Source: Rhizobium sp. Q54 (GTDB lineage Bacteria; Pseudomonadota; Alphaproteobacteria; UBA828). Taken from it: a stretch of DNA of 51,694 nt. Below the pieces are notes generated by a model that saw only the letters and a list, made by a program, of their open reading frames with translations, had not been told where the DNA came from and searched no databases. The stretch is taken from assembly GCA_945892755.1 (NCBI GenBank), contig CAMDDO010000010.1, positions 1 to 51,694 of the forward strand, in the 5' to 3' direction. Both the position numbers and the translations under genes were made by a program. Numbering within the stretch: position 1 is the stretch's first letter; each line of letters starts with the position of its first letter. This document shows positions 2,856-41,147 of this stretch, in pieces.

Positions 2856-2876
2856 GCAGGCAAGGAGGACGCCTTC

Positions 2877-4283: not shown

Positions 4284-4304
4284 AGGCTACGGGCCGCTCG
4301 CCCG

Positions 4305-6655: not shown

Positions 6656-6662
6656 GGACGCC

Positions 6663-18470: not shown

Positions 18471-18485
18471 GTCTCTGCCCTTCTC

Positions 18486-19676: not shown

Positions 19677-19853
19677 GGGGCCTGTTTTCCGTTGGTTTTA
19701 GGTCTCGGCAGTCGCTCGTTTGGCGCTGCCCTGTCGGACCCCGCGTCCCGGATTGTAGGCCGCGGCGCCCCGGGGTCAACGATTTGAATGACGGAATTGT
19801 ATGACAGGAATTATCATTCCCGCCGGCCCAGACCGGGTTGGAAGATGATCGCC
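19677..19853. promoter_or_regulatory. Divergent control region between thiolase operon and gntR-type regulator
   Basis: This 177-bp region must contain the promoters of the thiolase operon (minus) and the regulator (plus). Just before the regulator start it holds TTGTATGACAG (19797-19807), a 10/11 match to the FadR-subfamily consensus TNGTNNNACNA; an inverted repeat GGAAT-TATC-ATTCC (19807-19820); and a near-repeat of ATGACGGAATT (19788-19798) as ATGACAGGAATT (19801-19812). GATTGTAGG at 19751 repeats the left half of the sites at 11842 and 35125. This layout fits autoregulation; binding is inferred. Confidence 0.5.
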
Positions 19854-20573
19854 ATGGATGTGCCTGTACAAGCCAAAACCGAGCGGCCCGTGCGCACACG
19901 GGCGGGGCGGAGCCATGGGCTGAGCTCACCCGACCAAGTGGTTGCGGCCTTGATCCGAGGTCTTCAGGACGGTCGCTATGTGCCGGGTCAGCGTCTGATC
20001 GAGGCCGACCTGACCAACGACCTCAAGGTCTCTCGCGGCCCGATTCGCGAGGCGCTGAAGCGGCTCGCCGCGGAGGGTTTGGTTAGCCTGATTCCGCATC
20101 GCGGCGCCTATATTCGCGCGCTCGCCCGTGACGAAGTGCATCATATGCTCCTCGTCCAGGAAATGCTGACCGGCTTGGCCGCCCGTCTCGCGGCTTCCGT
20201 TATCGGCCAGGGCAACAACCGCGCCGAATTCGACGAGGCTTATCAGCGACTGCTTGTTTTCCGCGATCATGCTGAAAGCATCCCGTTCCTCGAGGAACGC
20301 TCGCGCTTTTACAACACGATGATTCGCATCGGCGGCAATCTTGAACTCGGGCGTATGATGCCGGCCATGCAGATCCATTTGCTACGCATGCAATTCCACC
20401 AGCACTTGACGCCGAAGGATCGCGCGCGACAGTTCAAGGAATATGATGCGTTGGTCGCCGCCATCCTCGAGGGCAATCAGAATGAGGCCGAAAAACTGAT
20501 GCGCCTCCACATCAGGCGCACGCGCCTCAGCATAGAGCGCCTGCCGGATGAGGCCTTCGCCGGCCTGCTCTGA
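19854..20573 (+). CDS. GntR-family transcriptional regulator, FCD (FadR) subfamily
   Basis: A DNA-binding repressor or activator responding to a small acid or acyl-CoA. The N-terminal winged helix runs over about residues 25-90, with LTNDLKVSRGPIREALKRLAAEGLVS as the recognition region and the HRGAYI wing. The C-terminal helical FCD domain (about 100-225) contains the ligand-binding helices ending in HIRRTRLSIERL. Upstream in-frame starts exist at 19788 and 19845; ATG 19854 is preferred because GGAAG (19840-19844) is correctly spaced for it and too close for 19845. Placement between the thiolase and acyl-CoA dehydrogenase operons, plus matching palindromes at several promoters here, makes it the likely local regulator. 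Confidence 0.92.
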   Translation: MDVPVQAKTERPVRTRAGRSHGLSSPDQVVAALIRGLQDGRYVPGQRLIEADLTNDLKVSRGPIREALKRLAAEGLVSLIPHRGAYIRALARDEVHHMLLVQEMLTGLAARLAASVIGQGNNRAEFDEAYQRLLVFRDHAESIPFLEERSRFYNTMIRIGGNLELGRMMPAMQIHLLRMQFHQHLTPKDRARQFKEYDALVAAILEGNQNEAEKLMRLHIRRTRLSIERLPDEAFAGLL

Positions 20574-20585
20574 TCGGCCGCTCTA

Positions 20586-21878
20586 CTAGGGGATCCAAAC
20601 TGGGCGCTTACGGAAGCCCGGCGCATTGGAACGCGGCAACACGATTGACGAGCCGCCCGTGGTCGAGACTTCGCCCTCATGGCGGCGCAGCTCGAGCCGG
20701 GCGATCTGATTGCGGTGCACTTCGTCTGGTCCATCGGCCAGGCGCAACAGGCGCGCGGTCGCATAGGCATAAGCGATGCCATAGTCGGCGGTGATGCCGG
20801 CGCCGCCAAAGGCTTGCAACGTCCAGTCGATCACCTGGCAGGCCATATTGGGCGCCGCGACCTTGATCATAGCGATCTCTTTGCGGGCTTCCTTGTTGCC
20901 GACAGTGTCCATCATCCAGGCGGCCTTGAGCGTCAGAAGCCGCGCCTGATCGATCATGATGCGCGCTTCGGCAATACGCTCCTGCGTCACGGTCTGGTCG
21001 GCGACCGCGCGACCAAAGGCCTTCCGCGCCTTGGTGCGCCTGCAAAGACGCTCCAGCGCCCGCTCCGCCAAGCCGATCAGGCGCATGCAATGATGGATGC
21101 GGCCTGGCCCGAGGCGCCCTTGCGCGATCTCGAAGCCGCGGCCTTCGCCGAGCAGCATATGATCGAGCGGCACGCGCACATTCTCGAAGCTCACCTCGGC
21201 ATGGCCGTGTGGGGCTTCATCGAAACCGAAGACCGGCAACATGCGCCGCAGCGTGACGCCGGGCCACGGCAACGGCACCAGGATCATCGATTGCTGCTTG
21301 TGCCGATCGGGGTTGTTCGGGTCGTTCTTGCCCATCACGATGAGGATCTTGCAGCGCGGGTCGAGCGCGCCCGAAGTCCACCATTTGCGCCCGTTGATGA
21401 CGTACTCATTGCCGGCGCGCTCGATCCGCGTTTCGATATTGGTGGCATCCGATGACGCCACTTCGATCTCGGTCATCGCGAAAGCGGAGCGGATTTCACC
21501 GGCCAGCATGGGCTCGAGCCACTGCTTCTTCTGCGCGGCCGTGCCGTAGCGCACCAGCACCTCCATATTGCCGGTGTCGGGCGCCGAGCAATTGAATGCC
21601 TCGGGCGCCCAGGGCGAGCGGCCCATTTCCTCGCAAGCCGGGGCGTAATCGAGATTGGTCAAGCCGGCCCCATACTCGCTTTCGGGCAGGAATAAATTCC
21701 AGAGGCCTTCGGCCTTGGCCTTTTTCTTCAGCTCATCGAGCAACGGAATGGGCTGCCAGCGATCGCCCTCGTCGATCTGCGCGAGAATCTCTTCCTCGTT
21801 CGGATAGATATGGGCGCTCATGAAGGCCGCGACGCGATCGCGATGGTGTTTGGCCTTGGTGCTGTATTCGAAATCCAT
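20586..21878 (-). CDS. Acyl-CoA dehydrogenase (ACAD10/11-like)
   Basis: A flavin-dependent dehydrogenase acting on acyl-CoA, 430 residues. Visible family features are the FAD/substrate segment [24 protein letters not shown], the [10 protein letters not shown](T) motif and the C-terminal [16 protein letters not shown] followed by [19 protein letters not shown], the latter typical of the ACAD10/11 and longer-chain or 4-hydroxyacyl groups. The kinase-like partner seen in ACAD10/11 is encoded separately at 14717, so the pair may dehydrate hydroxyacyl-CoA through a phospho-intermediate. It is transcribed alone, divergently from the FabL-like gene and convergently to the regulator gene. Confidence 0.93.
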
Positions 21879-21954: not shown

Positions 21955-21978
21955 TTGTCCTTAATCTTGAGGCAAATC

Positions 21979-22719
21979 ATGGCGATCCTAGTCACCGGTG
22001 GCACTAAGGGCATCGGGCTCGACATCGCGCTCGCCTTCGCCACGCCCGGCAACGATGTTTGTCTCAACTACCACGCCGATGATGCCGCCGCCGATGACGC
22101 CCGTGCCGAGATCGAGGCCAAAGGCGCGCGCTGCCATTTGATCAAGGGTGATGTCGGGACGGCGGCGGGCTGCAAGGCGGTTATCGCGCGCGTGCACGCC
22201 GCCTCTCGGCAACTCGATCAACTCGTCCATTGCGCGGTTAGAGTGGTCGCGAAGCCGACGCTTGAGATCACGCCGGATGAACTGGCCGCGGCGGTCGCGG
22301 TCAATGGCCTCGCCCTACACAGTCTGGTGCAAGCGGCCCTCCCGCTGTTTCGCCCGGGCAGCACTGTATTCCTTCTGACCAGCCGCGGCGGCCGCATGGT
22401 GATCCCGAACTATGCCGCGATCGGCATCGGAAAGGCACTCGCCGAATCCCTGGTGCGCTATTTGGCGGTCGAACTCGCGCCCAAGGGCGTGCGGATCAAT
22501 TGCGTCGCGCCGTCGGTGGTCGAGACCGAGGCGGTTCGCGCCCTCTTCGGCGACAAGACCAAAGGCATTATGCAACACGCGGCATCGGACAATCCGACCG
22601 GGCGCGCCGTGCGGCCGGAGGACTATACGAATTTGATCCGCTATCTCGCGAGCCCCGAAGCTTCGTTCATCCAGGGCCAGGTGATCTACGTCAATGGCGG
22701 GCACAACATGATGGCCTAG
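21979..22719 (+). CDS. FabL-like SDR (enoyl-ACP/enoyl-CoA reductase III type)
   Basis: A 246-residue SDR whose active site is not the usual YxxxK but Y-x6-K (NYAAIGIGKALAES), the spacing of FabI and FabL enoyl reductases. The following RYLAVELAPKG, VETEAVRALF, NPTGRAVRPED and final GQVIYVNGGHNMM track the Bacillus FabL protein closely, while the cofactor motif is TGGTKGIG. It therefore probably reduces a trans-2-enoyl thioester with NADPH rather than a ketone. ATG 21979, preceded by GAGG, is chosen over an upstream in-frame start at 21955. It ends 5 bp before the convergent thiolase stop. A saturated/unsaturated thioester role would fit the acyl-CoA dehydrogenase across the divergent promoter. 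Confidence 0.82.
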   Translation: MAILVTGGTKGIGLDIALAFATPGNDVCLNYHADDAAADDARAEIEAKGARCHLIKGDVGTAAGCKAVIARVHAASRQLDQLVHCAVRVVAKPTLEITPDELAAAVAVNGLALHSLVQAALPLFRPGSTVFLLTSRGGRMVIPNYAAIGIGKALAESLVRYLAVELAPKGVRINCVAPSVVETEAVRALFGDKTKGIMQHAASDNPTGRAVRPEDYTNLIRYLASPEASFIQGQVIYVNGGHNMMA

Positions 22720-22724
22720 GGCCG

Positions 22725-23897
22725 TTAACCCAGCCGCTCGATCAGCGTGGCGTTCGCCATGCCGCCTGATTCGCACATGGTGACAAGGCCACGACGCCCG
22801 CCCGATTCCTCAAGACCGCGAACCAGGCTCATCATCAGCCGCCCACCCGAAGCACCAACCGGATGGCCGAACGCGATCGCGCCACCATCGACATTGACCC
22901 GCTCGGGGTCCGCCCCGGTTTCGTCCAACCAGGCAAGCACCACAGAGGCGAACGCCTCGTTGACCTCGAAACGGTCGATGTCGTCAATGCCGATCGCGGC
23001 ACGGTTCAAGAGCTTACGGGTCGCGGGAATGATCCCGGTCAGCATCATGATCGGATCATCACCCGCCACAGCGAAATGGCTGAGCGCCGCGCGCGCCCTT
23101 AGCCCAAGCCGTTCGGCCACCTTCTCCTCGGCCAGCAGGATTGCCGAGGCGCCGTCGCTTACTTGGCTGGCATTGCCGGCGGTCACCGACCAGCGGATTT
23201 CCGGAAAACGCGCCGCCATGGCCGGGTCTTCGAACGACGTCTTCAACGCTGCAAGCCGCTCGATCGAGCTATCGGCGCGAATGCCCTCATCGCGCGACAC
23301 ACCCTCGATCGGCTCTATTTCTTGCTCCAATGAACCACGCGCGGCGGCGGCGGCGGCACGCCGATGCGAGCGCAACGCGAAGGCGTCGAGCGCCGGGCGG
23401 CCGAGCCGCCAGCGCGCCGCGATCAATTCTGCCGAAATGCCCTGGTGCACCAGGCCCTCAGGATAGACCGCGTGGAACATCGGGCCGAGATTGTCCTTGC
23501 CGAGGCGGTTCGCCTTCATCGGCACGCGCGACATCATTTCGACACCACCGGCGACAACAAGGTCATAGGCGCCGGCGATAATGCCTTGGGCGGCGAAATC
23601 GATCGCCTGCTGGGCCGAGCCGCATTTGCGGTCGATCGTGACGCCCGGCACGCTCGGCGGCAGGCCGGCCGCGAGCCAGGCCTGGCGCGCGATGTTCGCC
23701 GCCTGCTCGCCAACTTGGATGACGCAGCCAGCGATCAGATCATCAATCCGATCGGGCGCGATGCCCGTGCGCGTGATCAGGGCCTGCAAGGTCTTGGCAA
23801 ACAGATCGACCGGATGCACGGCCGCGAGCGCGCCGCCTTCCTTCCCTTTGGTGAAGGGCGAGCGCACCGCCTCGACGATGACCGCGCGGCGGGCCAT
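22725..23897 (-). CDS. Thiolase family protein (acetyl-CoA acyltransferase-like)
   Basis: The 390-residue protein has the nucleophile in DRKCGSAQQ (Cys92), the catalytic His in GGAIAFGHPVGASGG and the second Cys in MCESGGMANA, so it should be active. It is the last gene of the nine-gene biotin-carboxylase/dikinase operon, one base after the carboxyltransferase-like gene. In the inferred pathway it would cleave a 3-ketoacyl-CoA formed by carboxylation and CoA activation, giving acetyl-CoA plus a shorter acyl-CoA. The sequence is of the degradative rather than the biosynthetic PhaA type by eye. Confidence 0.92.
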   Translation of the reverse strand: MARRAVIVEAVRSPFTKGKEGGALAAVHPVDLFAKTLQALITRTGIAPDRIDDLIAGCVIQVGEQAANIARQAWLAAGLPPSVPGVTIDRKCGSAQQAIDFAAQGIIAGAYDLVVAGGVEMMSRVPMKANRLGKDNLGPMFHAVYPEGLVHQGISAELIAARWRLGRPALDAFALRSHRRAAAAAARGSLEQEIEPIEGVSRDEGIRADSSIERLAALKTSFEDPAMAARFPEIRWSVTAGNASQVSDGASAILLAEEKVAERLGLRARAALSHFAVAGDDPIMMLTGIIPATRKLLNRAAIGIDDIDRFEVNEAFASVVLAWLDETGADPERVNVDGGAIAFGHPVGASGGRLMMSLVRGLEESGGRRGLVTMCESGGMANATLIERLG

Positions 23898-23898
23898 C

Positions 23899-25359
23899 TC
23901 AGACCGCCCGGCTCATGGTCAGATTTAGCTCGCTGCTCTTGATCTCGACATAGGCGCTCTTGGCCAGTGTCATGAGCTTCCGCACCTGTTCAAGCTCGGG
24001 CGAGGAGAACAGAGCAAAATCGCGTTTGACCGCGCCAGCCTCGCGCATGCGCTTCAAATCCGGCTCGGGCACCAACGCGCGTAGGATCAGCTCATCGTCA
24101 TCGTCGGTGCCGTAGCGCTTGCGCAGTTCCTCGATCGTCGGCTGTTCGGGCGGGTTGGCCAGCACTTCCTTGGCACGCGGGGCGCTCATGATCTTATCCA
24201 GCACGTCGGGTTCGATGGGTGCCACTGTCGAGCCATAATAGCCGGCGGCATATTGGATCACTTCGTCCGGAATCACAGCGTAGCGCTTACCGGAGACCAT
24301 GTTGAGCACGGCGAGCGTGCCGACCAATTGCGAGAACGGCGTCGCCATGCCGGGATAGCCGAGCTCACGCCGCACCCGCGCGGTCTCCTCCAACACCTCG
24401 GGCAGTTTGTCGGACATATTGTGCTGAGCGAGCTGGGCCTTCAGCGTGCCCATCATGCCGCCGGGAATCTGGTGGCGCGCATGGAACAGATCATATTCGT
24501 GCATTTGATTGACGAGGAACCCAGCCGCTCGGCCGACCTTCTCGAAATGTTCAGCGATCGGCGGCAACAGCGCCTCGTTCAAACCATGGGTGTGGCCGAG
24601 CGCGGCCAGATTGCTAAGCATCACCTCGGTCGACGGCACCGAGGGGCCGTTCGCCATCGGCCGGCTCGCCGTGTGCAGGATCGTTACGCCGAGCTTGAGC
24701 GCCTCGACATAGGCAATAGCGGACGCGCCCAGGATATTGTTCGAATGGAACTCAATCGGCTTGCCGCGCGCCTTCGCCATCACGGCCGGGAACAGCGTGC
24801 GCATTCGGTCCGGGGTAAGCACCCCCGCCGTATCGTAAAACAAGATGGTATCGATATCGGGCGAGGCCGAAATCTTGTCGGACTTATCGGCATAATACGC
24901 ATCGGTGTGCACCGGCGAGAGCGTGAACATGATTGCGCCAGCGACCTCGGCGTCGAACCCTTTCGCTACTTTGGCAAGTCGGTGCATTTTGTCGATGTTG
25001 AACAGCACGTCGTAAATCCAAAAACTCCGGCAGCCATGCACGCAAAGCTGACGCATCCAAGCGTCCATCAACGAATCGGGCGTGACACCAAAGGTAACCG
25101 ACGCGTTGGACCGCATGCCGCCCCGAATGCGGCTATTCGGCATGGATTGCACCAGCAGGTCCAACCCCTCCCATGGGTTCTCACTGCAGTGACGGATCAG
25201 CACCTCGAAAAGCGACGAGCCGGTCAGGTCGACCACGCGAAAGCCGACCTGATCGATGGTCGGGGTGATCGGCAGCGCCATGCCGGCCTGCATGCGCATA
25301 CCCCATAGGCTCTGCTGGCCATCGCGCATGGTCTCGTCGACGAACTCGATATGCGCCAT
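23899..25359 (-). CDS. Carboxyltransferase-like subunit (pyruvate carboxylase/oxaloacetate decarboxylase alpha type) with altered metal site
   Basis: Expected to transfer the carboxyl group from carboxybiotin to an enolate. The 486-residue protein is built like the 5S/PYC carboxyltransferase: a DRE-TIM barrel starting FVDETMRDGQQS (metal ligand Asp13), then the helical tail ending near residue 460. Two hallmarks are changed. The carbamylated lysine (KDMAG in relatives) is Tyr175 in FYDTAGV, and the HxH zinc pair is H205-S-N207 in FHSNN. Metal binding or substrate must therefore differ from pyruvate carboxylase. Genes for BCCP and biotin carboxylase lie directly upstream (5-nt gap), so it is very probably their partner. 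A non-carboxylating lyase role is the alternative. Confidence 0.85.
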   Translation of the reverse strand: MAHIEFVDETMRDGQQSLWGMRMQAGMALPITPTIDQVGFRVVDLTGSSLFEVLIRHCSENPWEGLDLLVQSMPNSRIRGGMRSNASVTFGVTPDSLMDAWMRQLCVHGCRSFWIYDVLFNIDKMHRLAKVAKGFDAEVAGAIMFTLSPVHTDAYYADKSDKISASPDIDTILFYDTAGVLTPDRMRTLFPAVMAKARGKPIEFHSNNILGASAIAYVEALKLGVTILHTASRPMANGPSVPSTEVMLSNLAALGHTHGLNEALLPPIAEHFEKVGRAAGFLVNQMHEYDLFHARHQIPGGMMGTLKAQLAQHNMSDKLPEVLEETARVRRELGYPGMATPFSQLVGTLAVLNMVSGKRYAVIPDEVIQYAAGYYGSTVAPIEPDVLDKIMSAPRAKEVLANPPEQPTIEELRKRYGTDDDDELILRALVPEPDLKRMREAGAVKRDFALFSSPELEQVRKLMTLAKSAYVEIKSSELNLTMSRAV

Positions 25360-25364
25360 CGCGC

Positions 25365-26726
25365 CTACTCCTTGGCCGCGCTAAAGCTGGGTAGGAAGAC
25401 CTGCTCCAACCAACGCGTGTTGAACTGGTTCGCAACGAAATCGGGATGTCTGATCAACGTCGCCTGAAAGCCGAGATTGGTCATGATGCCGTCGATCTGA
25501 AACGCGCTCAGCGCATCGGCCGCGCGGCGCAAAGCGTCGACACGATCCGTGCCGTGGACGATCAGCTTGCCGATCATCGAATCATAGAATGGGGGCACGA
25601 GGTAGCCGGCGCGGCAATGGCTGTCGAGCCGGAAACCGGCTCCTTCGGGCGGTCGCCACGCGGTGATGCGGCCCGGCGAAGGCAGAAAATTTTTCGCCGG
25701 GTTCTCGGCGTTGACGCGCAGCTCGATCGCATGCCCCGTCACGCGGATATCAGATTGCCTGAGGGACAGTCCTTCGCCTGCTGCGACGCGCAATTGGAGT
25801 TGCACCAGATCGTGGCCGGTAACCGCCTCACTCACCGGGTGCTCGACCTGGATGCGGGCATTGACCTCGATGAAATAAAACTCCTCGCGGTCGACGTCAT
25901 AGAGAAACTCGACCGTGCCGGCATTGCGATAATTGATACGACTGGTCAGTTTAATGGCCGCCTCGTGCAACGCGGTGCGCGCATGCGCCGGCAATATCAC
26001 GGCCGGTGCCTCCTCGGCCACCTTCTGATAGCGGCGCTGCGCCGAGCAATCACGCTCGCCGAAATGCAGCACGGTGCCTTTGCCGTCACCCATCACTTGA
26101 ACTTCGACATGGCGCGCATTGCCGACATAACGCTCCATATAGAGAGTGCCATCGCCAAACGCGTTGCGCGCCTCTTCAGAGGCGCGTTCAAAGCGGGCCT
26201 CGATCTCGTCCGGTCCTGGCGCCACGAACATGCCGCGCCCGCCGCCACCGGCCGAGGCCTTCATCACCACCGGATAGCCGACGTCCTCGGCCGCCGCTTT
26301 GGCATTGGCCACGCTTACGATGTGATTGGTGCCGGGAACGAGCGGCACGCCGGCTTCCTCGGCAAGCTTGCGTGCTGAAATCTTGTCGCCGACCCGCTCA
26401 ATGGAGTCCGCACTCGGCCCGACGAAGGCGAGGCCGCTCTCCTCGCAAAGTCGGGCAAACGGGGCACGCTCGGACAAAAAGCCATAGCCGGGATGCAACG
26501 CATCGCAACCGGTCGCGCGAGCGGCATGGACGATCGCGGCCATGTTCAAATAGCTGTCGCGCGCGGCGGGCGGGCCGAGCACGACCGTGCGATCGGCCAT
26601 CTCGGCACCCATGGTCTCGCGATCCGCGGTCGAGATGCCGAGCACGGTTTCGAGACCGAGCGCCTGCGCGGCGCGAATAATCCGCACCGCGATCTCACCC
26701 CGGTTCGCGATGAAAAGGCGTTTCAT
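25365..26726 (-). CDS. Biotin carboxylase subunit
   Basis: ATP-grasp enzyme that carboxylates biotin on BCCP with bicarbonate and ATP. The 453-residue protein has the N-terminal FIANRGEIAVRIIRA, the glycine-rich ATP loop KASAGGGGRGM, the RDCSAQRRYQKV(A)EEAP segment and FIEVNARIQVEHPVSEAVTG with the catalytic Glu and Arg. The length equals AccC. It lies 14 nt after the BCCP gene and 5 nt before the carboxyltransferase-like gene. Because the partner carboxyltransferase is of pyruvate-carboxylase type rather than AccA/AccD, this is not the housekeeping acetyl-CoA carboxylase; the symbol accC is therefore not applied. Confidence 0.93.
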   Translation of the reverse strand: MKRLFIANRGEIAVRIIRAAQALGLETVLGISTADRETMGAEMADRTVVLGPPAARDSYLNMAAIVHAARATGCDALHPGYGFLSERAPFARLCEESGLAFVGPSADSIERVGDKISARKLAEEAGVPLVPGTNHIVSVANAKAAAEDVGYPVVMKASAGGGGRGMFVAPGPDEIEARFERASEEARNAFGDGTLYMERYVGNARHVEVQVMGDGKGTVLHFGERDCSAQRRYQKVAEEAPAVILPAHARTALHEAAIKLTSRINYRNAGTVEFLYDVDREEFYFIEVNARIQVEHPVSEAVTGHDLVQLQLRVAAGEGLSLRQSDIRVTGHAIELRVNAENPAKNFLPSPGRITAWRPPEGAGFRLDSHCRAGYLVPPFYDSMIGKLIVHGTDRVDALRRAADALSAFQIDGIMTNLGFQATLIRHPDFVANQFNTRWLEQVFLPSFSAAKE

Positions 26727-26740
26727 GTTCGGCGCCGCCG

Positions 26741-27232
26741 CTAAGCCACCGGTTCGATGTAAAACAAGGGCGCGTCGTATTCGACCATCCTGCCATCCTC
26801 GACGCAGATCCGCGCGATACGGCCGGCAATTCCAGCCTTGACCGGCGTAAACAGCTTCATCACCTCGATCAGGCAGATCTCCGTATCGGCGGTGATCGTT
26901 TGACCGACCTCGACATAGGGGGCGGCCCCCGGTTTCGGCGCGCGGTAAAACGTGCCGAGATTGGGCGCGCGAACCGCGACCCAGCCCGCCGGCACGGCTT
27001 CGCTCGGAGCGAGTGGTGGTGCGGGCGATGGGGTCATGGCGGCAGTCGATGCCGGCGTCACCGCACGCGGCGCGGCATCGATCGCTCCGCGTTGGTTGCT
27101 GATGCGATAGGGCGTATTCGGGTCTTTCGAGAGCACGACCGAGAGACCCTCGGCCTCGACACTGATCTCCCGCCAGTTCGATTGCTCGAACAGACGGATC
27201 AATGCTTCGACGTCATTGAATTTCTGATTCAC
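26741..27232 (-). CDS. Biotin carboxyl carrier protein (AccB-like)
   Basis: Carries biotin between the carboxylase and carboxyltransferase. The 163-residue protein has an AccB-like N-terminal segment (about 1-45), a Pro/Ala-rich flexible linker (about 52-85) and a C-terminal biotinyl domain with EVMKL, the biotinylated residue being Lys126. The canonical AMKM has become VMKL, a tolerated variant. The thumb-like APxLGTFYRAP motif of AccB is present. The gene overlaps the end of the upstream dikinase-like gene by four bases (27229-27232), tying carboxylation to the phosphoryl-transfer genes. Confidence 0.93.
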   Translation of the reverse strand: MNQKFNDVEALIRLFEQSNWREISVEAEGLSVVLSKDPNTPYRISNQRGAIDAAPRAVTPASTAAMTPSPAPPLAPSEAVPAGWVAVRAPNLGTFYRAPKPGAAPYVEVGQTITADTEICLIEVMKLFTPVKAGIAGRIARICVEDGRMVEYDAPLFYIEPVA

Positions 27233-29007
27233 GATACAGGTTCCTCGGCCGACGCTCGCTCCGAGACTGCCGCGCAGGCCGCGAGCAAGGCCGGCAAGAC
27301 CGGTGAAATCACGATGAATTCGAGACCGGCCCTGATTGCCGCCGCGATGCCCGCGTCGCTTGCCAGCGCGCGTCCCTTCGCGCCGTCATGGCCGATGACG
27401 AGCCGTGACATCATTTCGGGCTCCTCGCCCCTCGGCAGATGATCGAGGTCGGCGATCTTGGCGCCGGCCGGCGCCTGGCTCGGTTCATAAACCTTGAACG
27501 GCGCGCGCGGCGCGGCCCAGGCGGCAAGCTGCATCAGCGCCGGATCGTCGCGTTCTTCGGGCTCGACGACCGCCAGCGCGCCGTCATAGACGCAGCCCGC
27601 GCCGCCATCGACGGTGACCGTGCGATCGCCAAACGCGCCGAGCACCGCCGGCCCGCAGCCGACGACGCAAGGAAGCCCGAGCGCGCGGCTCACGACCGCC
27701 GCGTGGCAGGTCGCGCCGCCCTCAGCGGTGACGATCGCCTTGGCCGCGATCATGCCGTGGACATCTTCCGGACTCGTGGTCGGACGAACCAGCACCACCG
27801 CGCGGCCCTCGCGCGCGGCCGCCTCCGCCGCATCGGCGTCATTGACCACGGCACCGACGCCGACACCCGGGCAGGCGCCCTCGCCGCGCGCCAATACGGT
27901 CGCGCGCGCCGCTTCGCCCTGGCGGAGACGCGGACGCAAAATACTGCGAACCTGATCGGCGTTCACCCGACCAAGCGCGGTTACCTCATCGATGCGGCCT
28001 TCTCTGACGAACTCGACGGCGAGCGCGACCGCGGCTTCAGGCGCACGCTTTGCTGCGCGCGATTGCAGAAGATAGAGCTTGCCGCGTTCGACGGTGAACT
28101 CAATGTCCTGCACGTCGCGTTCGGCATCTTCCAACAGGCGCGCCGCGCGCAAAAGTTCGTCATGGATCGCTGGGTGCTTCTTGGCGAGCGCCGAAAGGGG
28201 CTCAGGCGTGCGGGTCCCCGAGACCACATCTTCGCCCTGGGCGCGCGCGAGATATTCGCCATAGGGAACCGGATCGCCGGTCAGCGGATTACGGCTGAAC
28301 AACACGCCCGTGCCGCTATCATCGCTCAAATTGCCGAAGATCATCGCCTGCACGGTCACCGCCGTGCCGGACTCGTGGGCGATGCCATGATGTTCGCGAT
28401 AGCGCTTCGCGCGCCTTGAGTTCCAAGACTCAAACACAGCGCGCACCGTCGCCACTAATTGGGCCTCCGGATCGTTTGGCACATCGCCGGCGCCCTGCTC
28501 TTTGATCTTGGCGCGCCACGCGGTGACACCGGCAGCAGGCTCAAGTTCGACCAATGTCGCTTTCAGCACGATGCGCGCGAACATCTCGAGGAAGCGGCGA
28601 TGGCTATCACGCGCGAAGCCGGCATCGCCGCTCTCCGCCGCAAGCGCCGCCTCGGTCGCGTCATTCAGCCCAAGATTGAGTACGGTATCCATCATGCCCG
28701 GCATGCTGATCGCGGCACCCGAACGCACCGAGACGAGCAACGGCCTCGGGCCGCGGCCGAAAATTCGACCAGTCGCCGTCTCAAGCACCGCGATGCCGGC
28801 GGCGAGTTCGCCGATGAGGCTTCGAGGCAAATTACCGTCGGCGAGAAAGGCACGGCACGCCTCGGTCGTGACCACGAAAGCCGGCGGCACGGCGAGCCCC
28901 ATCGCGCTCATGCGGGCCAAGCTCCACGCCTTGCCGCCGATCAAACCGCGCGGCGGCAGATCGCCGCCATCGATGAAAAGCGTGTGGGGGCCGAGCGCGC
29001 GCGCCAT
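27229..29007 (-). CDS. Pyruvate phosphate dikinase-like protein lacking the PEP/pyruvate barrel
   Basis: Full PPDK has about 870-900 residues: an ATP-grasp domain, a swivelling phosphohistidine domain and a C-terminal PEP/pyruvate barrel. This 592-residue protein has the first two only. The nucleotide-binding part includes SVRSGAAISMPGMMDT (93-108) and the catalytic region VLFSRNPLTGDP; the swivel His is His435 in GGATCHAAVVSRALG. After about residue 480 there is a 110-residue tail of no recognised family instead of the barrel. It can presumably move phosphate from ATP to His435, but the acceptor must be handled by another protein, possibly the products at 31103 or 32676. Phenylphosphate synthase and rifampin phosphotransferase are precedents for such rebuilt dikinases. 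Confidence 0.87.
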   Translation of the reverse strand: MARALGPHTLFIDGGDLPPRGLIGGKAWSLARMSAMGLAVPPAFVVTTEACRAFLADGNLPRSLIGELAAGIAVLETATGRIFGRGPRPLLVSVRSGAAISMPGMMDTVLNLGLNDATEAALAAESGDAGFARDSHRRFLEMFARIVLKATLVELEPAAGVTAWRAKIKEQGAGDVPNDPEAQLVATVRAVFESWNSRRAKRYREHHGIAHESGTAVTVQAMIFGNLSDDSGTGVLFSRNPLTGDPVPYGEYLARAQGEDVVSGTRTPEPLSALAKKHPAIHDELLRAARLLEDAERDVQDIEFTVERGKLYLLQSRAAKRAPEAAVALAVEFVREGRIDEVTALGRVNADQVRSILRPRLRQGEAARATVLARGEGACPGVGVGAVVNDADAAEAAAREGRAVVLVRPTTSPEDVHGMIAAKAIVTAEGGATCHAAVVSRALGLPCVVGCGPAVLGAFGDRTVTVDGGAGCVYDGALAVVEPEERDDPALMQLAAWAAPRAPFKVYEPSQAPAGAKIADLDHLPRGEEPEMMSRLVIGHDGAKGRALASDAGIAAAIRAGLEFIVISPVLPALLAACAAVSERASAEEPVS

Positions 29008-29014
29008 GATGGGC

Positions 29015-29617
29015 CTAATCGTCGCGCTCGCGCCCGAGGACGCGCAACAGATCCTCGTGCAGCTCGAACCAGAGCGTGTGATAGGATTCGATCTTGGCGC
29101 CCGAGACCCATTCGATCTCGCCGTCCTCGGCCTTTTCGAGCGCCGTCAATAGCTTTCGGCCATAGACCGCGAGCCGGGGTACGCCAAGGCACAGCGCCTC
29201 CAGCACCATTTCAGCCTGTTCGTGCAGGATCCCCAAACGATCGATGATCGCCTCGTCATGCGCCTTGTTGGCATGGTCGTTCGGCACGCGTTGGCCGGCG
29301 AACTCCACGGTTTGCCAATCGGTGATCAATTGCTTCAGCGCCCGGTTGACCACTTCGAAGCGCTCATAGGCCGCGACAAAGTCCTTGTTCGCGCGCTGAT
29401 CGGCATAGACCCGCGAATATTCGCCATCGAGCGCCATGCGCGCGGCCGGCGTCAGCATATAGGCGCCAGCAGTCTCGATCGCGCGGCCCTCGCCGACGGC
29501 TTGGCTAAGCAATGATTTCACACGCGCGGGATCGAGGCCCATCAGACCCGCCACGGCTTCCGCGCCGCCATGTTTCTTGATGGCAAGGCCGTGCAGCGCG
29601 AGGTGCATGTCGCTCAC
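29015..29617 (-). CDS. Uncharacterised winged-helix-like protein of the dikinase/carboxylase operon
   Basis: No named family was recognised. The 200-residue protein begins with a helix-turn-helix/winged-helix-like unit (about 5-65: LHGLAIKKHG, GLDPARVKSLLSQAVGEG, AYMLTPAARMAL) and continues as a mostly helical region rich in acidic residues and aromatic positions (about 70-195). There is no signal peptide or membrane segment. It sits 7 nt before the dikinase-like gene and 3 nt after the acyl-CoA synthetase gene, so it is an integral operon member. It could be a regulator, or an enzyme subunit that borrows a winged helix as a protein-interaction domain; the close coupling favours the latter. 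Confidence 0.8.
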   Translation of the reverse strand: MSDMHLALHGLAIKKHGGAEAVAGLMGLDPARVKSLLSQAVGEGRAIETAGAYMLTPAARMALDGEYSRVYADQRANKDFVAAYERFEVVNRALKQLITDWQTVEFAGQRVPNDHANKAHDEAIIDRLGILHEQAEMVLEALCLGVPRLAVYGRKLLTALEKAEDGEIEWVSGAKIESYHTLWFELHEDLLRVLGRERDD

Positions 29618-29620
29618 CGC

Positions 29621-31099
29621 TCAACCCGCCGCGCGCTTCGGCTTTTCGCGCGCGATGATTTGATCGCGCACTTCGCGACGGAGGATTTTGCCGGCCGCGC
29701 TCTTAGGCAGCGTGGGCCAAATCTCGAGTCCCTTCGGGCATTTGTAATTGGCGAGTTTGTCGCGACAAATGGCGAGCGTCGCCTCTTGATCGAGGTCCGC
29801 GCGCCCCGCGACCACGGCGAAGACGCGATCGCCCCATTTCTCATCAGGCAGGCCGATGACCGCCGCTTCGACCACACCCTCGCAACCGAGCAACACGTCC
29901 TCGACTTCGCGCGGATAGACGTTATAGCCGCCTGATATCAACATGTCGTTCTTGCGATCGAGGATGTAGAAGAAGCCGTCCTTATCCATCGTTCCGACAT
30001 CGCCGGTGTGCAACCACCCTTTGCGAAACGCGGCGTCGGTCGCCTCCGGGCGGTTCCAATAGCGCGCCATGAGCTGCGGCCCGCGCACCACGATTTCGCC
30101 CTTTTCGCCCGGCAGCAGCGGCTTGTCGTCGTCGTCAAAGATCGCGACCTCGGCCAAGAAGAACGGCCGGCCGCAGCTGCCGATGCGGTCATGATCCTCG
30201 GGCTTCAGGCAGGTGATCACCATGGGCGATTCGGCTTGACCATAGGTCTGCGCGAAGACGCGGCCGAAGCGCGCCATGGCGCGTTCGAGGAGCGCGGGCG
30301 CGATCGGCGAGGCGCCATAGGAAATGCTCTTCAGCGAGAGTTTGGCGCTCGCCAGCGACGGCTCTTCCATGATCATCGCGAGCATGGTCGGCACGAGAAA
30401 AGTGTGCGTCGCGCGCTCGTCTCCGGCCAGCGCGATAAAGCTCGCGGGATCGAATTTCGCCATGATCACCGAGCGCACGCCCCTGACGATCGCCGGCAAT
30501 ACGAACGCGCCACTGGCATGAGCGATCGGCGCGGCGTGCAAGAACGTGTCGCCTTCCGTCATGTCGGGCACGAGATCGACCAGGAACGCCGAAAGCTCGG
30601 CGAGCTCGCCCCGCGTTGTCAAGGTGACCGCCTTCGGTTTGCCGGTTGTGCCGCCCGTATAGCCAAGCCGCAGCGGTTCATCGAGCGCGCGGTCAACGCG
30701 GCAGGGTGTGGCGTCGCCCTGCGCCATCATCGCAGCCAAACGCTCGGGCCCGATCACCATTTGAGCCTCGGCGCTACCCTCGACGCCGTGGATCAGCGCC
30801 CGTGTTCCGCTATCCGCAATCTTGTAAACATGATCGGCCGCGGTCTCGCGCAAATTGAGAGGCACGCGCACAAGACCCGCTTTGGCGAGCGCGTAATAGG
30901 CTACCAAACAATCAATCCCGTTCGGCAATAGCACGCCAACCCGCTCACCTAGCACGAGACCCGCGGCCAGCAACGCATTGCCCAACCGATCGGTCGCCTG
31001 ATCGAAGCCCTTGAAGCTCATCACGCGCGGGCCTTCGACGAACGCCGGGGCGTCGCCGTACATCACGCCACCGCGGCGAATCAGTTCACCGATCTGCAT
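29621..31099 (-). CDS. AMP-forming acyl-CoA synthetase/ligase
   Basis: Activates a carboxylic acid to its CoA thioester through an acyl-adenylate. The 492-residue protein has the P-loop-like YTGGTTGKPKAV (near 150), the YGQAESP motif, the hinge-containing TGDVGTMDKDGFFYILDRKNDMLISGG and the catalytic lysine region PKSAAGKILRREV. It lies three bases after the 520-residue orphan gene and three before the winged-helix gene. In the inferred route it would activate the carboxylated product (for example a beta-keto acid) for the thiolase at the end of the operon. Acid specificity cannot be read from sequence. Confidence 0.92.
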   Translation of the reverse strand: MQIGELIRRGGVMYGDAPAFVEGPRVMSFKGFDQATDRLGNALLAAGLVLGERVGVLLPNGIDCLVAYYALAKAGLVRVPLNLRETAADHVYKIADSGTRALIHGVEGSAEAQMVIGPERLAAMMAQGDATPCRVDRALDEPLRLGYTGGTTGKPKAVTLTTRGELAELSAFLVDLVPDMTEGDTFLHAAPIAHASGAFVLPAIVRGVRSVIMAKFDPASFIALAGDERATHTFLVPTMLAMIMEEPSLASAKLSLKSISYGASPIAPALLERAMARFGRVFAQTYGQAESPMVITCLKPEDHDRIGSCGRPFFLAEVAIFDDDDKPLLPGEKGEIVVRGPQLMARYWNRPEATDAAFRKGWLHTGDVGTMDKDGFFYILDRKNDMLISGGYNVYPREVEDVLLGCEGVVEAAVIGLPDEKWGDRVFAVVAGRADLDQEATLAICRDKLANYKCPKGLEIWPTLPKSAAGKILRREVRDQIIAREKPKRAAG

Positions 31100-31102
31100 G
31101 GC

Positions 31103-32665
31103 TCAGGACTTGTCCGCCAGCGCTTCGACATCGGCCCGGCTCAGGCCCGCGCCCTTGCCCTTCAACTTCCGCGAGAGTAGCTGCTCGTTTTCATAGAGAG
31201 CGCGCGCCGCCGGCGTGCCGGCGTTGTATTTGAGCCAAGCATCGTCGAGAAAGCGGTTTTCCGTGGCGCAGCCCTTCGGCGTAAAGCCGCGCGACAGCCG
31301 ATTGTATTCCGCAAGCGGAAGCACGCCCCGACTGGTCCGATAGCGATCTTCCTTCTTCGGCAGGCAGGTTGAGCCCGGATAGACCGGCCCAGACGTCGTC
31401 GTGTAGTCATCGCCGCTTAGGATCGAATAGGGGACCGGCGAAAACATGCGGAGCGGCGAATTATTGTGCTGCATCATCGTGTAGTCATGGGCGCGCTGGC
31501 TTGGCAGCGAGACATAACCAACCAGCTCGGCCAACACGTCGCGCGCATATTCGTCGTTCAGGAGCGGACGGAAGCGCTGCGCGCGCTCGTCGATCAGCAT
31601 CCAGTCTTCATATTCATAGGTGCCAGCAACGTGCGCGATGTCCTTGAAGATGCCGAAATACATCAGGGCGCCGGCATCCATCATCTGATCGCGCGTCCAA
31701 GACGCGACGCGCTTCCAGAGCTTATTGGTCGCCTCCTTGGCGATCGCCGCGAGCTCGTTATAGGTGCGGGTCAGTTCGGCCCTGGAACCCATGCCGACCG
31801 GGATGAAGCCCTCGGTCAGCGGATCGGAGGTGTAGAGACCGACGCCCACGATGTGCTCGGCGCGAAAATCCGGCTTTGATTCGAAGCTGCCCCAATCGTC
31901 CATCAAATAGAAATGGCAGTCCTTCACCATCATCGGCACGGTCAGATTATTGTAGGGCATGTCGGCGCCGACGCCATCGAGCCAGGGCAGATCGTTTTCC
32001 GCGAGATCCATGAAATCGCGCACGATCATCTCGCGCTTGTCGTCGATCTTATAGGGCCCGGTATTGCACAGGCTGATGCGGCTCTCGCACGAAATCAAAA
32101 AGCCATATTGCGAGACGGTCGCCATGAAGTTCGCCGCAGCCATATGGAGCTCATCGCCCGCCTCGCAGCGGTACATATCGGCATGGAACACCTGCAGCCG
32201 CCGCTCGGGCAGCACTTGCGCGCGGTGGCCGAATTCCTTGTTGGTGATGTGGCCGTCATTCCGGTGCCAGGACAATTGGAAGCGCTTCCAGAAATCCAGC
32301 ACATAGATAACATCCTCAACCGCGTCCTGGGGGCGCAGCAGGCCCATATTGATCAGCCACTCACGGCCGAGAAAATAGAAGCCCAAGAGGCCCCAGCTCA
32401 TCGGCGGGTTGTTGATCTTGATGCCCATATTGCGCGCGCGATCGCCGATCTCCTCGGCGGACAGGCGTGTTTCAACTTTCCTGAGCAGCGAGGGATAACG
32501 ATAAAAGGCGTTGAGATAGGACAACATCATATAAGCCGGCACGGGGAAGAGTTTGGACTCCTGCACCGTGCGGGTAACGCAAAGCCAATAGCTCTCGTCC
32601 GTGAAGACCTGGAGAAGATTGTTGGTCTCCAAAAGCTGCGGATAGGTGATGTTGCGTGCGCTCAT
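31103..32665 (-). CDS. Conserved-looking 520-residue protein of unknown family
   Basis: I do not recognise this protein. It is 520 residues, soluble in appearance (no signal peptide or long hydrophobic segment), rich in Tyr, Trp, Met, His and Asn, and has a good coding pattern throughout. Several short segments look like active-site or ligand loops: SWHRNDGHITNKEFGHR (about 131-147), QVFHADMYRCEAGDELHMAAANFM (about 158-182) and AHDYTMMQHNNSP. It sits 10 nt after the phosphohistidine-domain gene and 3 nt before the acyl-CoA synthetase gene. One inference is that it supplies the substrate-binding part missing from the dikinase-like protein. An unrelated enzyme or scaffold role cannot be excluded. 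Confidence 0.85.
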   Translation of the reverse strand: MSARNITYPQLLETNNLLQVFTDESYWLCVTRTVQESKLFPVPAYMMLSYLNAFYRYPSLLRKVETRLSAEEIGDRARNMGIKINNPPMSWGLLGFYFLGREWLINMGLLRPQDAVEDVIYVLDFWKRFQLSWHRNDGHITNKEFGHRAQVLPERRLQVFHADMYRCEAGDELHMAAANFMATVSQYGFLISCESRISLCNTGPYKIDDKREMIVRDFMDLAENDLPWLDGVGADMPYNNLTVPMMVKDCHFYLMDDWGSFESKPDFRAEHIVGVGLYTSDPLTEGFIPVGMGSRAELTRTYNELAAIAKEATNKLWKRVASWTRDQMMDAGALMYFGIFKDIAHVAGTYEYEDWMLIDERAQRFRPLLNDEYARDVLAELVGYVSLPSQRAHDYTMMQHNNSPLRMFSPVPYSILSGDDYTTTSGPVYPGSTCLPKKEDRYRTSRGVLPLAEYNRLSRGFTPKGCATENRFLDDAWLKYNAGTPAARALYENEQLLSRKLKGKGAGLSRADVEALADKS

Positions 32666-32675
32666 CGTCTTGTCC

Positions 32676-33425
32676 TCAGCCCCGCTTCTCGTGCTTCCAG
32701 ATATTCGCGGTCATGTCTTTGCCGGTCTGATAGGCTTCGGCGGTCTTGGCAGCGGCGGACGACTCAAGCTCGACCGTATCGCCCTCCTTGATGCCTTTGA
32801 TCTTCGAGTTCATCAGACAGGGAATGCCGTATTCGCGCGCCAGAATGCCGAGATGCGAGCGGGTCGAGCCACCCATGCAGATCACGCCCTTGAAATGTTC
32901 GAGGATCGGCGCGGTCAAAGTGCCACCCGAATCATCGATGATCGCGATGGTCTCGGGCGGAACGCCCTTGGTCAGATAATCCATCACTGCCGCGCTGGTG
33001 CGCACATAGCGCGCGATGCCGATCGTGTTGGCTGCGTGTTGGACCACATTGTCGCCAATGCCCTGCAACGCCCGCCCCTTGGCATCAGCCGGCGCGGTCG
33101 GCGCATCGGGGTGCTCGAAGGAATAGTCCTTGGCCGCCTCGCCGAGGCCCGGCACCGGCTTATAGGCTTCGGGCCGCTCTTGGACCGAGATGATCGCCGA
33201 ATAGTCGAAGCGATGGCCGGCCTTGAGCAGCTTCGCCTCGATCGCCTTCATGTCATCGGCGGTAATGAGGGTCAGGCTCTTGTCGAACACGAAGCTCGGC
33301 CAATCACCGCCGGCTTGGTCGAGCCGTTTGCGCACCAGATCCTTGATCGCCGAATGATAGGCCTCGACGGTCGGGAACTTTGCCCGGTCGCCGTATTTGT
33401 CGTTGTCGACATAGAGTTTGGCCAT
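32676..33425 (-). CDS. Stand-alone PEP-utilising-enzyme mobile (phosphohistidine) domain protein
   Basis: About 249 residues. The C-terminal half is the swivelling phosphohistidine domain of PEP synthase/PPDK, with the phospho-accepting histidine in GGSTRSHLGILAREYGIPCL (His191 in this numbering) and the closing strand GDTVELESS. The N-terminal half (about 1-120) is not a recognised nucleotide-binding domain. With the dikinase-like protein at 27229 there are thus two phosphohistidine domains in one operon, suggesting phosphate relay or a split enzyme. ATGs at 33440, 33431 and 33425 are all in frame; 33425 is preferred because GGGG is well placed before it. It is the first gene of the nine-gene operon. 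Confidence 0.85.
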   Translation of the reverse strand: MAKLYVDNDKYGDRAKFPTVEAYHSAIKDLVRKRLDQAGGDWPSFVFDKSLTLITADDMKAIEAKLLKAGHRFDYSAIISVQERPEAYKPVPGLGEAAKDYSFEHPDAPTAPADAKGRALQGIGDNVVQHAANTIGIARYVRTSAAVMDYLTKGVPPETIAIIDDSGGTLTAPILEHFKGVICMGGSTRSHLGILAREYGIPCLMNSKIKGIKEGDTVELESSAAAKTAEAYQTGKDMTANIWKHEKRG

Positions 33426-33455
33426 GCCCATACCCCACATTCCGCAGCCAAAAGG

Positions 33456-33494: not shown

Positions 33495-33511
33495 AGATTG
33501 TCAGACAATCT
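33495..33511. promoter_or_regulatory. 17-bp perfect palindrome, candidate GntR-type operator of the dikinase/carboxylase operon
   Basis: AGATTGTC-A-GACAATCT is a perfect 17-bp palindrome 70 bp upstream of the operon start, overlapping the last codons of the upstream acyl-CoA synthetase. Its core TTGTCAGACAA is an exact match to the FadR-subfamily GntR consensus TNGTNNNACNA. With a one-base centre it is a poor RNA hairpin but a good dimer-binding site. The regulator encoded at 19854 is the obvious candidate ligand. Confidence 0.6.
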
Positions 33512-35069
33512 TGCCCGTGATTGTCGTTGATCCATGTTGATGGAATTCATCAATAAGCTGCTCACGCAACTCCATTTTTATCACTTTTCCATAGGCATTT
33601 TTGGGCAACGCCTCGAGCCGGCGATAGGCCTTGGGCCGCTTGAAACGCGCGATCCGCTCCAAGCAAAGCCGGTCAAGCGCGCTATCCTCGATCACGGCGC
33701 CCGGACGGGCCACCACGAACGCCACCACCCGCTCGCCCCAATCAGGGTCAGGTGCGCCCACGACCGCGACCTCGGCCACGTCCGGGTGGTCGAGCAGCAC
33801 CGCCTCGACCTCGCGCGGGTAAATATTGGCGCCGCCTGAAATGATCAGGTCCTTGGCGCGATCCTTGAGCGAAAGACAGCCCGCCTGATCGAAGCAACCG
33901 AGATCTCCGGTACGCAAGCCAAGCGGACCGAAGGCCGCGCGGGTCGCCGCCGCGTCGTCGAGATAGCCACGCATTACGACATCGCCCCGCACCACAATCT
34001 CGCCGATCTCGCCTTGCGGCAGCGCCCGCCCCGCGTCATCGCAGACATGAACCTCGACACCCGTGCGCGCGATGCCGACCGAGACCAGCCGCTCCTCGTC
34101 ACCCGACGACGCGGCCTCCGCCACCATCGCTTTCGACATGGCGGTGATGGTGCAAGGGCTCTCACCCTGACCATAACCATTCCAGACCCGCGGGCCGAAG
34201 CGCGCCAACGCATCTTTCAAATCGCCGGCGTAAATGGGGGCCGCGCCGCAGAGTATGGTTTTGAGGTGTGCCAAATTGACCCGCGCCATGCGCTCGGACG
34301 CGCTGAGCCGGCGCAGCAAGGTCGGCGGCACAAAGAAGCTCACCTTTTCATGGCGATCGATCAGCGCCGCGAGCTCATCGATGTCGAAGCCGCCGCTCGG
34401 CGGCAGAATCTGGTTCGAGGCACGCGGGATGTGCGATAGCGAGAACAGGCCCGAGGCGTGCGATTGCGCGGCGAGATGGATCAGGCAATCGCGCTCGTCG
34501 AGCCAATCGACATCGGCGTGATAGGCCAGCGCCATGGCGAGCAGGTTGCGATGGCTGAGGACCGCGCCCTTGGGCCGGCCGGTCGTGCCGCTGGTATAAA
34601 ACAACCAAGCCGGCGCACCCGCCTCGGTCTCGGCCATCGCGATAGGCTCGGCGGCGGCGAGCACGCGGTAGTCCGCACCGCCAATGACAATCAAGTGGGG
34701 CGGCCTCGGCAATGCCGCGAGCGCGCCGGCAAGCGATTCCGCGAGGTCAGGGGTGGCGAAGCAGATCGCCGCGCGGCAATGCTCGATCATGAACGCGTGC
34801 TCGCGCGGGTGCAGTTTGGCGTTCATTGGCGCCGCGACCAACCCGGCATGCCAGGTCGCGAACAGGAGCGGCAAATACTCGGGCCCGTTCGACATCACGA
34901 GCGCGATGCGTGTGCCTGGCTCTAGCCCAAATCCCCGCAAGCCCCCCGCCAGCTGCGCGACATGGCGGCTGAGCGCGCCATAGAGATAGAGCGGTTCATC
35001 GCCGAGCGAGATGGCCGGCCGGGTGGGATGCGCGCGGGACGCGGTGTGGAGCAAGATGGCAAGGTTCAT
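33501..35069 (-). CDS. AMP-forming acyl-CoA synthetase (class I adenylate-forming enzyme)
   Basis: A second acyl-CoA ligase, 522 residues, with the canonical FYTSGTTGRPKGAVLSH (near 160-176), NGYGQGESP, the TGDLGCFDQAGCLSLKDRAKDLIISGGANIYPREVE hinge region and the C-terminal catalytic lysine in LPKNAYGKVIK. The open frame extends a further 195 codons upstream, but that part is antisense to surE and has no homology-like sequence, so ATG 35069 (MNLAILLHTA) is taken as the start. It is divergent from surE and ends about 75 bp before the dikinase operon, which it may read into. Malonyl-CoA synthetase-like or medium-chain acid ligases are the nearest types by eye. Confidence 0.92.
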   Translation of the reverse strand: MNLAILLHTASRAHPTRPAISLGDEPLYLYGALSRHVAQLAGGLRGFGLEPGTRIALVMSNGPEYLPLLFATWHAGLVAAPMNAKLHPREHAFMIEHCRAAICFATPDLAESLAGALAALPRPPHLIVIGGADYRVLAAAEPIAMAETEAGAPAWLFYTSGTTGRPKGAVLSHRNLLAMALAYHADVDWLDERDCLIHLAAQSHASGLFSLSHIPRASNQILPPSGGFDIDELAALIDRHEKVSFFVPPTLLRRLSASERMARVNLAHLKTILCGAAPIYAGDLKDALARFGPRVWNGYGQGESPCTITAMSKAMVAEAASSGDEERLVSVGIARTGVEVHVCDDAGRALPQGEIGEIVVRGDVVMRGYLDDAAATRAAFGPLGLRTGDLGCFDQAGCLSLKDRAKDLIISGGANIYPREVEAVLLDHPDVAEVAVVGAPDPDWGERVVAFVVARPGAVIEDSALDRLCLERIARFKRPKAYRRLEALPKNAYGKVIKMELREQLIDEFHQHGSTTITGKIV

Positions 35070-41136: not shown

Positions 41137-41147
41137 GGTTCCCTCCT

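Follow-up and report, generated by a model that had tools for sequence, protein, structure and literature searches.

A conserved operon of Rhizobium sp. Q54 couples a dikinase-type kinase cassette to a divergent biotin-dependent carboxylase

Introduction

Rhodococcus rhodochrous GD02 degrades 4-hydroxyacetophenone and acetovanillone by means of the hpeHICBADEF genes (PMC9618137, PMC12167813). The two-component dikinase HpeHI phosphorylates either ketone, and the biotin enzyme HpeCBA carboxylates only the phosphorylated form, retaining the phosphate on the phenol (PMC9618137). HpeD then removes the phosphate, and the pathway further includes a CoA ligase as well as a cleaving enzyme (PMC9618137, PMC12167813). 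The Acv pathway of Sphingobium SYK-6 is homologous to Hpe (PMC9618137, PMC12167813), and Xcc, the 4-hydroxyacetophenone carboxylase of Aromatoleum aromaticum EbN1, is an HpeCBA homolog clustered with kinase homologs (PMC9618137). For the same route, PMC13101465 names MarK, a single-component kinase of N. aromaticivorans. Here, we analyzed a 51,694-nucleotide stretch of Rhizobium sp. Q54 (assembly GCA_945892755.1, contig CAMDDO010000010.1, positions 1 to 51,694; hereafter the window), which carries a nine-gene operon with a comparable gene content. We found that this is a genuine catabolic operon conserved across phyla, which follows the logic of the Hpe pathway with a different kinase, a divergent carboxyltransferase (CT) and other candidate phosphatases.

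Results

All nine open reading frames (ORFs) were confirmed; they lie on the minus strand between positions 22725 and 33440, and from the first gene to the last the successive gaps are 10, 3, 3, 7, -4, 14, 5 and 1 bp, in agreement with the preliminary description of a nine-gene unit with spacings of at most 14 bp. GC content at third codon positions is uniform across the nine genes (0.74-0.79). Families were assigned by scanning the window proteins against Pfam and NCBIfam, and paralogs in the same genome were checked by family search. The first protein, P1 (32676..33440), combines a phosphohistidine-bearing PEP-utilizers swivel domain (PF00391) with an N-terminal region of its own; it had been described as a 249-residue phosphohistidine protein, and the domain was confirmed, but the longest ORF starting with ATG encodes 254 aa and the shorter length depends on the start chosen. 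P2 (520 aa, 31103..32665) is the proposed dikinase substrate-binding subunit, P3 (29621..31099) is an AMP-forming acyl-CoA synthetase (PF00501/PF13193) and P4 (200 aa, 29015..29617), without a Pfam or NCBIfam family, has an N-terminal winged helix in its structure model and is the putative partner of P5. The latter (27229..29007) is a pyruvate phosphate dikinase (PPDK)-like kinase of the VadK type, with an ATP-grasp domain and a swivel domain of its own (PPDK_N and PEP-utilizers; NF004531). The biotin enzyme comprises the biotin carboxyl carrier protein (BCCP) P6 (26741..27232; biotin_lipoyl, above the cut-off of TIGR00531), whose biotin-site motif EVMKL is invariant in the alignment, the biotin carboxylase (BC) P7 (25365..26726; above the cut-off of NF006367) and P8 (23899..25359; PF02436), a CT of the PYC/OADA type with a remodelled active site. 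The operon ends with the thiolase P9 (22725..23897; PF00108/PF02803), in which the thiolase motifs CGSAQQ, GHP and C-ESGG were seen in the alignment.

We then determined how widely this gene set is shared. Relatives of P2 were collected from a scan of GTDB species genomes (22 loci, 55-90% identity), from three plasmid loci (52-58%) and from relatives of the window's genome, and the window proteins were mapped onto these loci, which are designated here by L numbers. P2 indeed lacks a family in Pfam and NCBIfam, but with more than 30 orthologs it is not the orphan it was first taken for. Among P2-ortholog loci with enough flanking sequence, BCCP, BC and CT genes were present in 24 of 24 and P1, P4 and P5 in 22 of 22; a duplicate contig (L055) was left out of these counts, which are not all independent because some loci are near-copies of each other (L016/L023). 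Clusters lacking either the dikinase or the biotin half were looked for among these orthologs and none were seen. The co-occurrence of the 520-residue protein, the swivel protein and the biotin genes, as well as the union, in one operon, of a dikinase-type phosphorylation module with biotin carboxylase, CoA ligase and thiolase, both put forward in the preliminary description, are thus borne out by ortholog conservation. The hosts are alpha-, beta- and gammaproteobacteria together with Rhodococcus plasmids; with the set conserved in two phyla, chance adjacency can be ruled out. Gene order is mostly the same, with P3 kept directly after P2 and P9 after the CT gene in most loci. In sphingomonads the order is P2-BCCP-BC-CT-synthetase, followed by a SurE-family gene on the opposite strand and then by P1-P4-P5. 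The system is nevertheless rare: of 398 genomes sampled from the phylum, only that of the window itself encodes P2, and among 142 relatives of this genome P2 was found in 12.

By gene content, the operon shares with Hpe and Acv a dikinase-type phosphorylation, homologous BCCP, BC and PYC-type CT subunits, a candidate phosphatase, an AMP-forming CoA ligase and an enzyme predicted to cleave a C-C bond. As Hpe-type references we used plasmid loci of Rhizobium leguminosarum (L034) and Rhodococcus sp. JS3073 (L035), both assigned by their HpeHICBAD(E)-type gene content; between the two loci, the genes for the kinase pair, the HAD protein and the CoA ligase match at 36-49%. Over their full length, P8 is 37-39% identical to the CTs of these loci and P7 is 47-51% identical to their BCs (51% to that of L034). 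The earlier statement that no described system resembles the operon therefore does not hold, as Hpe/Acv shares its logic and a homologous carboxylase; the exact set of nine genes was not found described. The differences lie in the other components. HpeH unites a substrate-binding and a swivel domain and HpeI is an ATP-grasp domain alone, and in their place the operon encodes P1, P2, P4 and P5; with P1 contributing a swivel domain only, and P5 an ATP-grasp domain plus its own swivel, the two-component layout of HpeH and HpeI is not reproduced. Moreover, the cleaving enzyme of Hpe is the CouO-like hydrolase HpeF instead of a thiolase, and its phosphatase, HpeD, is a NagD-like HAD protein instead of SurE or a protein tyrosine phosphatase (PTP). 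The Xcc cluster, which serves an anaerobic ethylphenol route, differs by description in having an HpeHI-type kinase unlike that of the window. Analogy with acetone and acetophenone carboxylases, drawn in the preliminary description, was rejected as concerning the wrong family, for no hydantoinase A/B-type subunits or domains occur among the nine proteins. Separately, the window does contain a hydantoinase/oxoprolinase pair (HyuA and HyuB, 39343-43226), located about 6 kb from the operon beside a class-III aminotransferase.

On the logic of Hpe and Acv, we consider it rather likely that the operon phosphorylates a hydroxylated ketone, carboxylates and dephosphorylates it, ligates the product to CoA and cleaves it by thiolysis. 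P5 would autophosphorylate on its swivel histidine at the expense of ATP, as shown for VadK, and together with P4 would phosphorylate P1 on its swivel histidine; P1 in turn would transfer the phosphate to the hydroxyl of a hydroxylated ketone held by P2. P7 would carboxylate the biotin on P6, and P8, judging by its homology to HpeCBA and allowing for a different active site, would move the carboxyl group to the carbon adjoining the keto group of the phosphorylated substrate. A SurE and/or PTP-type protein would take off the phosphate, after which, as their families predict, P3 would convert the beta-keto acid to its CoA ester and P9 would thiolyse this to acetyl-CoA and a shorter acyl-CoA.

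Within the carboxylase, the departure from Hpe concerns the active site of P8. P8 belongs to the same sequence family as pyruvate carboxylase, the alpha subunit of oxaloacetate decarboxylase and transcarboxylase 5S, in which a carbamylated lysine and an HxH motif bind the metal and a threonine is catalytic. Alignment with these three enzymes revealed that P8 carries Y in place of the carbamyl-lysine, N in place of the second, metal-binding histidine (HxN) and P in place of the catalytic threonine. The same three replacements occur in all 24 proteobacterial cassette CT rows; two Rhodococcus cassette CTs have E at the lysine position and share HxN and P with the rest of the clade. In contrast, the Hpe-type CTs of L034 and L035 keep K, HxH and T. 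A maximum-likelihood tree places the cassette CTs on one side of a 100/100 branch, and the Hpe-type CTs, along with those linked to a Tm-1-like protein, form another group; the cassette CTs would thus be a sister clade to the Hpe type, in a tree that has several long branches and an unsure deeper order. Substrate or proton-abstraction chemistry may accordingly differ in P8. One way in which it could differ is that the dikinase makes an enol phosphate of a ketone, as PEP synthase does with pyruvate, and that P8 carboxylates this enol phosphate at a metal-free site. The missing metal-site lysine and second histidine of P8 and the PPDK descent of P5 agree with this idea, but biotin carboxyltransferases use enolates, and we know of no enol-phosphate route for them. 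Loss of the phosphate during carboxylation would also leave SurE or PTP without a purpose, and HpeCBA leaves the phosphate on the phenol (PMC9618137), so that we regard the enol phosphate as highly improbable.

In L030, L032, L034 and L035, though not in L031 and L033, the carboxylase family has a different phosphorylation or ATP-binding module beside it. In S. bisphenolicum (plasmid pBAR1; L030 5972-11357) and in Pseudomonas putida YC-AE1 (L032 6883-12365), a bisphenol degrader, the neighbors of an Hpe-type carboxylase are a HAD phosphatase and an ATP-binding protein resembling Tm-1. The Tm-1-like protein may represent a third kinase type for the same chemistry.

The kinase cassette proper consists of P1, P2, P4 and P5. 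Both swivel histidines, that of P1 and that of P5, are invariant in the alignment; the one of P1 lies in GG-(S/T)xRSHLGIL and is conserved in all rows shown, and P5 retains GG-ATCHAAVVSR with the catalytic histidine and the ATP-grasp motif VRSGAAISMPGMMDT in 35 rows. P5 scores 695 bits against NF004531 (cut-off 456), and its match to PPDK in the PDB covers the two N-terminal domains and ends around residue 500 of PPDK. By profile-based class (NF004531/PRK05878) it is of the VadK type, sharing the ATP-grasp and swivel domains of PPDK without the PEP/pyruvate barrel. VadK (Rv1127c) of Mycobacterium tuberculosis autophosphorylates from ATP at His422, its operonic partner Rv1126c aids its solubility, and it was described as a regulatory kinase with a reported interaction with methylcitrate-cycle enzymes (PMC13400623). 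VadK thus has an operonic partner, as P5 has P4, but was described without a swivel protein or a P2, whereas the cassette of the window consists of four proteins. A relative of P4 with 33.5% identity lies beside a VadK/PPDK-like gene in Mycobacterium avium, and P4 adjoins the other cassette genes, or is fused with them, in cassette loci. Its AlphaFold2 model (pLDDT 95) has an N-terminal domain resembling a winged helix according to Foldseek, with weak E-values. By analogy with the role proposed for VadK in mycobacteria, P4 and P5 might instead form a histidine kinase pair with a regulatory task, adjusting flux through the phosphorylation of proteins of the pathway, with P1 and P2 as targets and no small-molecule kinase involved. 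The VadK family membership of P5, the reported methylcitrate-cycle interaction (PMC13400623) and the winged helix of P4 are consistent with such a role. On the other hand, P1, P2 and P4 form one chain in L027 and are linked to phosphatases and oxygenases, and a different phosphorylation or ATP-binding module accompanies the carboxylase in the four loci named above, which makes regulation an unlikely function.

Fusions among relatives suggest that the swivel protein, P2 and P4 form one enzyme. The swivel protein and P2 are a single chain of 543 aa in Rhodococcus oxybenzonivorans (L024), and the swivel protein, P2 and P4 are a single chain of 793 aa in Rhodococcus opacus B4 (L027), whose gene adjoins that of a PTP phosphatase and lies close to a PPDK-like gene; in Paraburkholderia the four cassette genes are adjacent. 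Two Rhodococcus loci (L024 8905-13275 and L026 8311-11882) additionally encode, immediately upstream, two more divergent P2-like proteins that have swivel domains, so one Rhodococcus locus may hold several dikinases. As for P2 itself, searches of Pfam, NCBIfam and the PDB sequences yielded nothing. Foldseek and VIA-align likewise found no counterpart in the PDB for its AlphaFold2 model (pLDDT 79, pTM 0.84; best Z 2.2), which is no proof of a new fold. The notion that P2 is the split-off substrate domain of HpeH was not supported by BLASTP, which gave no match, by hhalign (probability 0.1) or by the fold search. Rifampin phosphotransferase (RPH), phenylphosphate synthase and CreHI likewise use ATP-grasp and swivel-histidine domains to phosphorylate the hydroxyl of a small molecule, but they have no second swivel and their substrate-binding domains have no detectable match to P2; the absence of RPH and other dikinase substrate domains from the fold-search lists is uninformative.

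More distant relatives of the cassette occur without biotin genes in the stretches examined, which indicates that the dikinase and biotin halves are separable modules. For example, cassette relatives are found near Rieske oxygenases in Diaphorobacter, near a cytochrome P450 (P450) in M. avium and near microcompartment and B12-mutase genes in Methylibium, in each case with no biotin carboxylase gene in the region covered. The Methylibium petroleiphilum plasmid loci (L029 9890-12779 and L070 4261-8762) contain a HAD phosphatase gene together with genes resembling those of P2, the swivel protein, P4 and P5, near bacterial microcompartment genes and a B12-dependent mutase cluster. This arrangement hints that a dikinase may work within a microcompartment pathway or alongside one. 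As read from the sequences, the family would combine a VadK-type phosphodonor, a winged-helix partner, a free swivel domain and a new substrate-binding protein. That P1, P2, P4 and P5 represent an unrecognized, widespread family of multi-protein small-molecule dikinases acting in several catabolic pathways, and here feed a CT whose metal center was rebuilt for a new class of phosphorylated substrate, is a proposal we hold to be evenly balanced.

Two genes of the window are candidates for the pathway phosphatase. The first encodes a SurE-family protein (PF01975; 35178-35978, plus strand), the second copy of this family in the genome, and is located 1.7 kb upstream of P1; SurE genes lie beside the cassette in 20 other loci and were not found at L010, L011, L058 or the Rhodococcus loci. 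The other genomic copy of SurE adjoins an ORF reading as seryl-tRNA synthetase, which is the usual neighborhood of SurE. The second candidate (Y_phosphatase3, PF13350; 37212-37973, minus strand) is of the PTP type and has homologs in eight loci (L003, L006, L007, L020-L022 and L024/L026), directly after the thiolase on the Rhodococcus plasmids L024 and L026. No HAD phosphatase was detected among the window proteins scanned with Pfam. A phosphatase gene of the SurE, PTP or HAD family accompanies the cassette in most loci, and because of gene position SurE or PTP could take the role of HpeD. In L016 and L017 (approximately 1500-8000), MMPL transporter, BNR/YCF48 and DUF1329 proteins are encoded beside SurE (families tested in L017, with the same layout in L016), and this set is also found near the Hpe-type carboxylase of P. 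putida (L032).

Some close neighbors can be counted with the nine genes, namely those for SurE, the PTP-type phosphatase, a second acyl-CoA synthetase, a short-chain dehydrogenase/reductase and a GntR-type regulator. A second acyl-CoA synthetase (33501..35024, minus strand; PF00501) is kept upstream of P1 in L002-L004, L006, L007, L009, L010, L020-L022 and L063; the listed ORF runs to 35654 and its AMP-binding part begins at residue 205, so the true start is uncertain. On the other side, a short-chain dehydrogenase/reductase (21955..22719, plus strand; PF13561) adjoins the thiolase and is present in L002, L007, L009, L010, L021, L055, L056, L061 and L062. It is followed by an acyl-CoA dehydrogenase (20586..21878, minus strand; PF00441), with a homolog adjoining the thiolase in L012, and by a candidate regulator of the GntR/FCD type (19788..20573, plus strand; PF00392/PF07729), with homologs at the cluster edge in L007, L009, L010, L012, L016, L017, L021, L023 and L055. 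The acyl-CoA dehydrogenase belongs to a beta-oxidation set beside the operon (16825-21878), kept in near relatives, which also includes a hydratase, a hydroxyacyl-CoA dehydrogenase and a second thiolase. Beyond it, the window encodes an APH-type kinase (14717-15760) whose relatives (45-48%) adjoin an acyl-CoA dehydrogenase in the sphingomonad loci L015 and L025. Near the cassette locus L012, a protein with a Cap15 cyclic-dinucleotide receptor domain (1107-2120) is a possible effector of cyclic-oligonucleotide-based antiphage signaling.

Substrate hints drawn from these neighbors conflict. Several point to phenolic compounds: near relatives possess branched-chain-type ABC importers, the window encodes an intradiol dioxygenase, and two hosts, Croceicoccus bisphenolivorans and R. 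oxybenzonivorans, are named as degraders of phenolic pollutants. Our literature search found no paper on oxybenzone breakdown by the latter. In addition, the only characterized carboxylases of the HpeCBA type act on phosphorylated hydroxyacetophenones. Others point to terpenoids: two sphingomonads encode proteins of the linalool dehydratase-isomerase family within a few kb of the cassette (L018 1210-3204 and L019 1558-3474), and the neighbors include P450, aldehyde and alcohol dehydrogenases in L025 and a P450 in L058. Accordingly, the substrate might be a terpenoid or alicyclic hydroxy-ketone or a tertiary alcohol, whose aliphatic hydroxyl would be phosphorylated and whose carboxylated product would be thiolysed, passing an acyl-CoA to the neighboring beta-oxidation. 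This alternative would give a use to the conserved beta-oxidation set and fit both the company kept by distant cassettes (P450s, Rieske oxygenases and the Methylibium mutase and microcompartment genes) and the difference between the P8 active site and that of Hpe-type CTs. The importers, the host names and the known carboxylase substrates speak against it, and we hold it as a tentative possibility. An aromatic substrate is slightly ahead of a terpenoid or alicyclic one, and the substrate of the operon is probably a hydroxyl-bearing aryl methyl ketone.

Discussion

Four observations weigh against an Hpe-like carboxylation of a phosphorylated aryl ketone as we propose it. P8 lacks the three catalytic or metal-binding residues that Hpe-type CTs keep, and its acceptor or chemistry may therefore differ. 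P2 has no detectable similarity to the substrate-binding domain of HpeH, so that homology gives no ground for inferring a phenolic substrate. The presence of two phosphohistidine domains makes the order of the relay uncertain. Finally, sphingomonad cassettes lie near linalool dehydratase-isomerase, P450 and CoA-transferase genes, and these neighbors point away from simple acetophenones.

If the proposed pathway is correct, the operon would provide a second, differently built dikinase among the few pathways in which a molecule is phosphorylated solely so that it can be carboxylated. The VadK-like kinases, which include one required for virulence in M. tuberculosis, would gain a concrete set of partners, and the altered CT would offer a natural case for asking what role the metal site plays in this class of enzymes.

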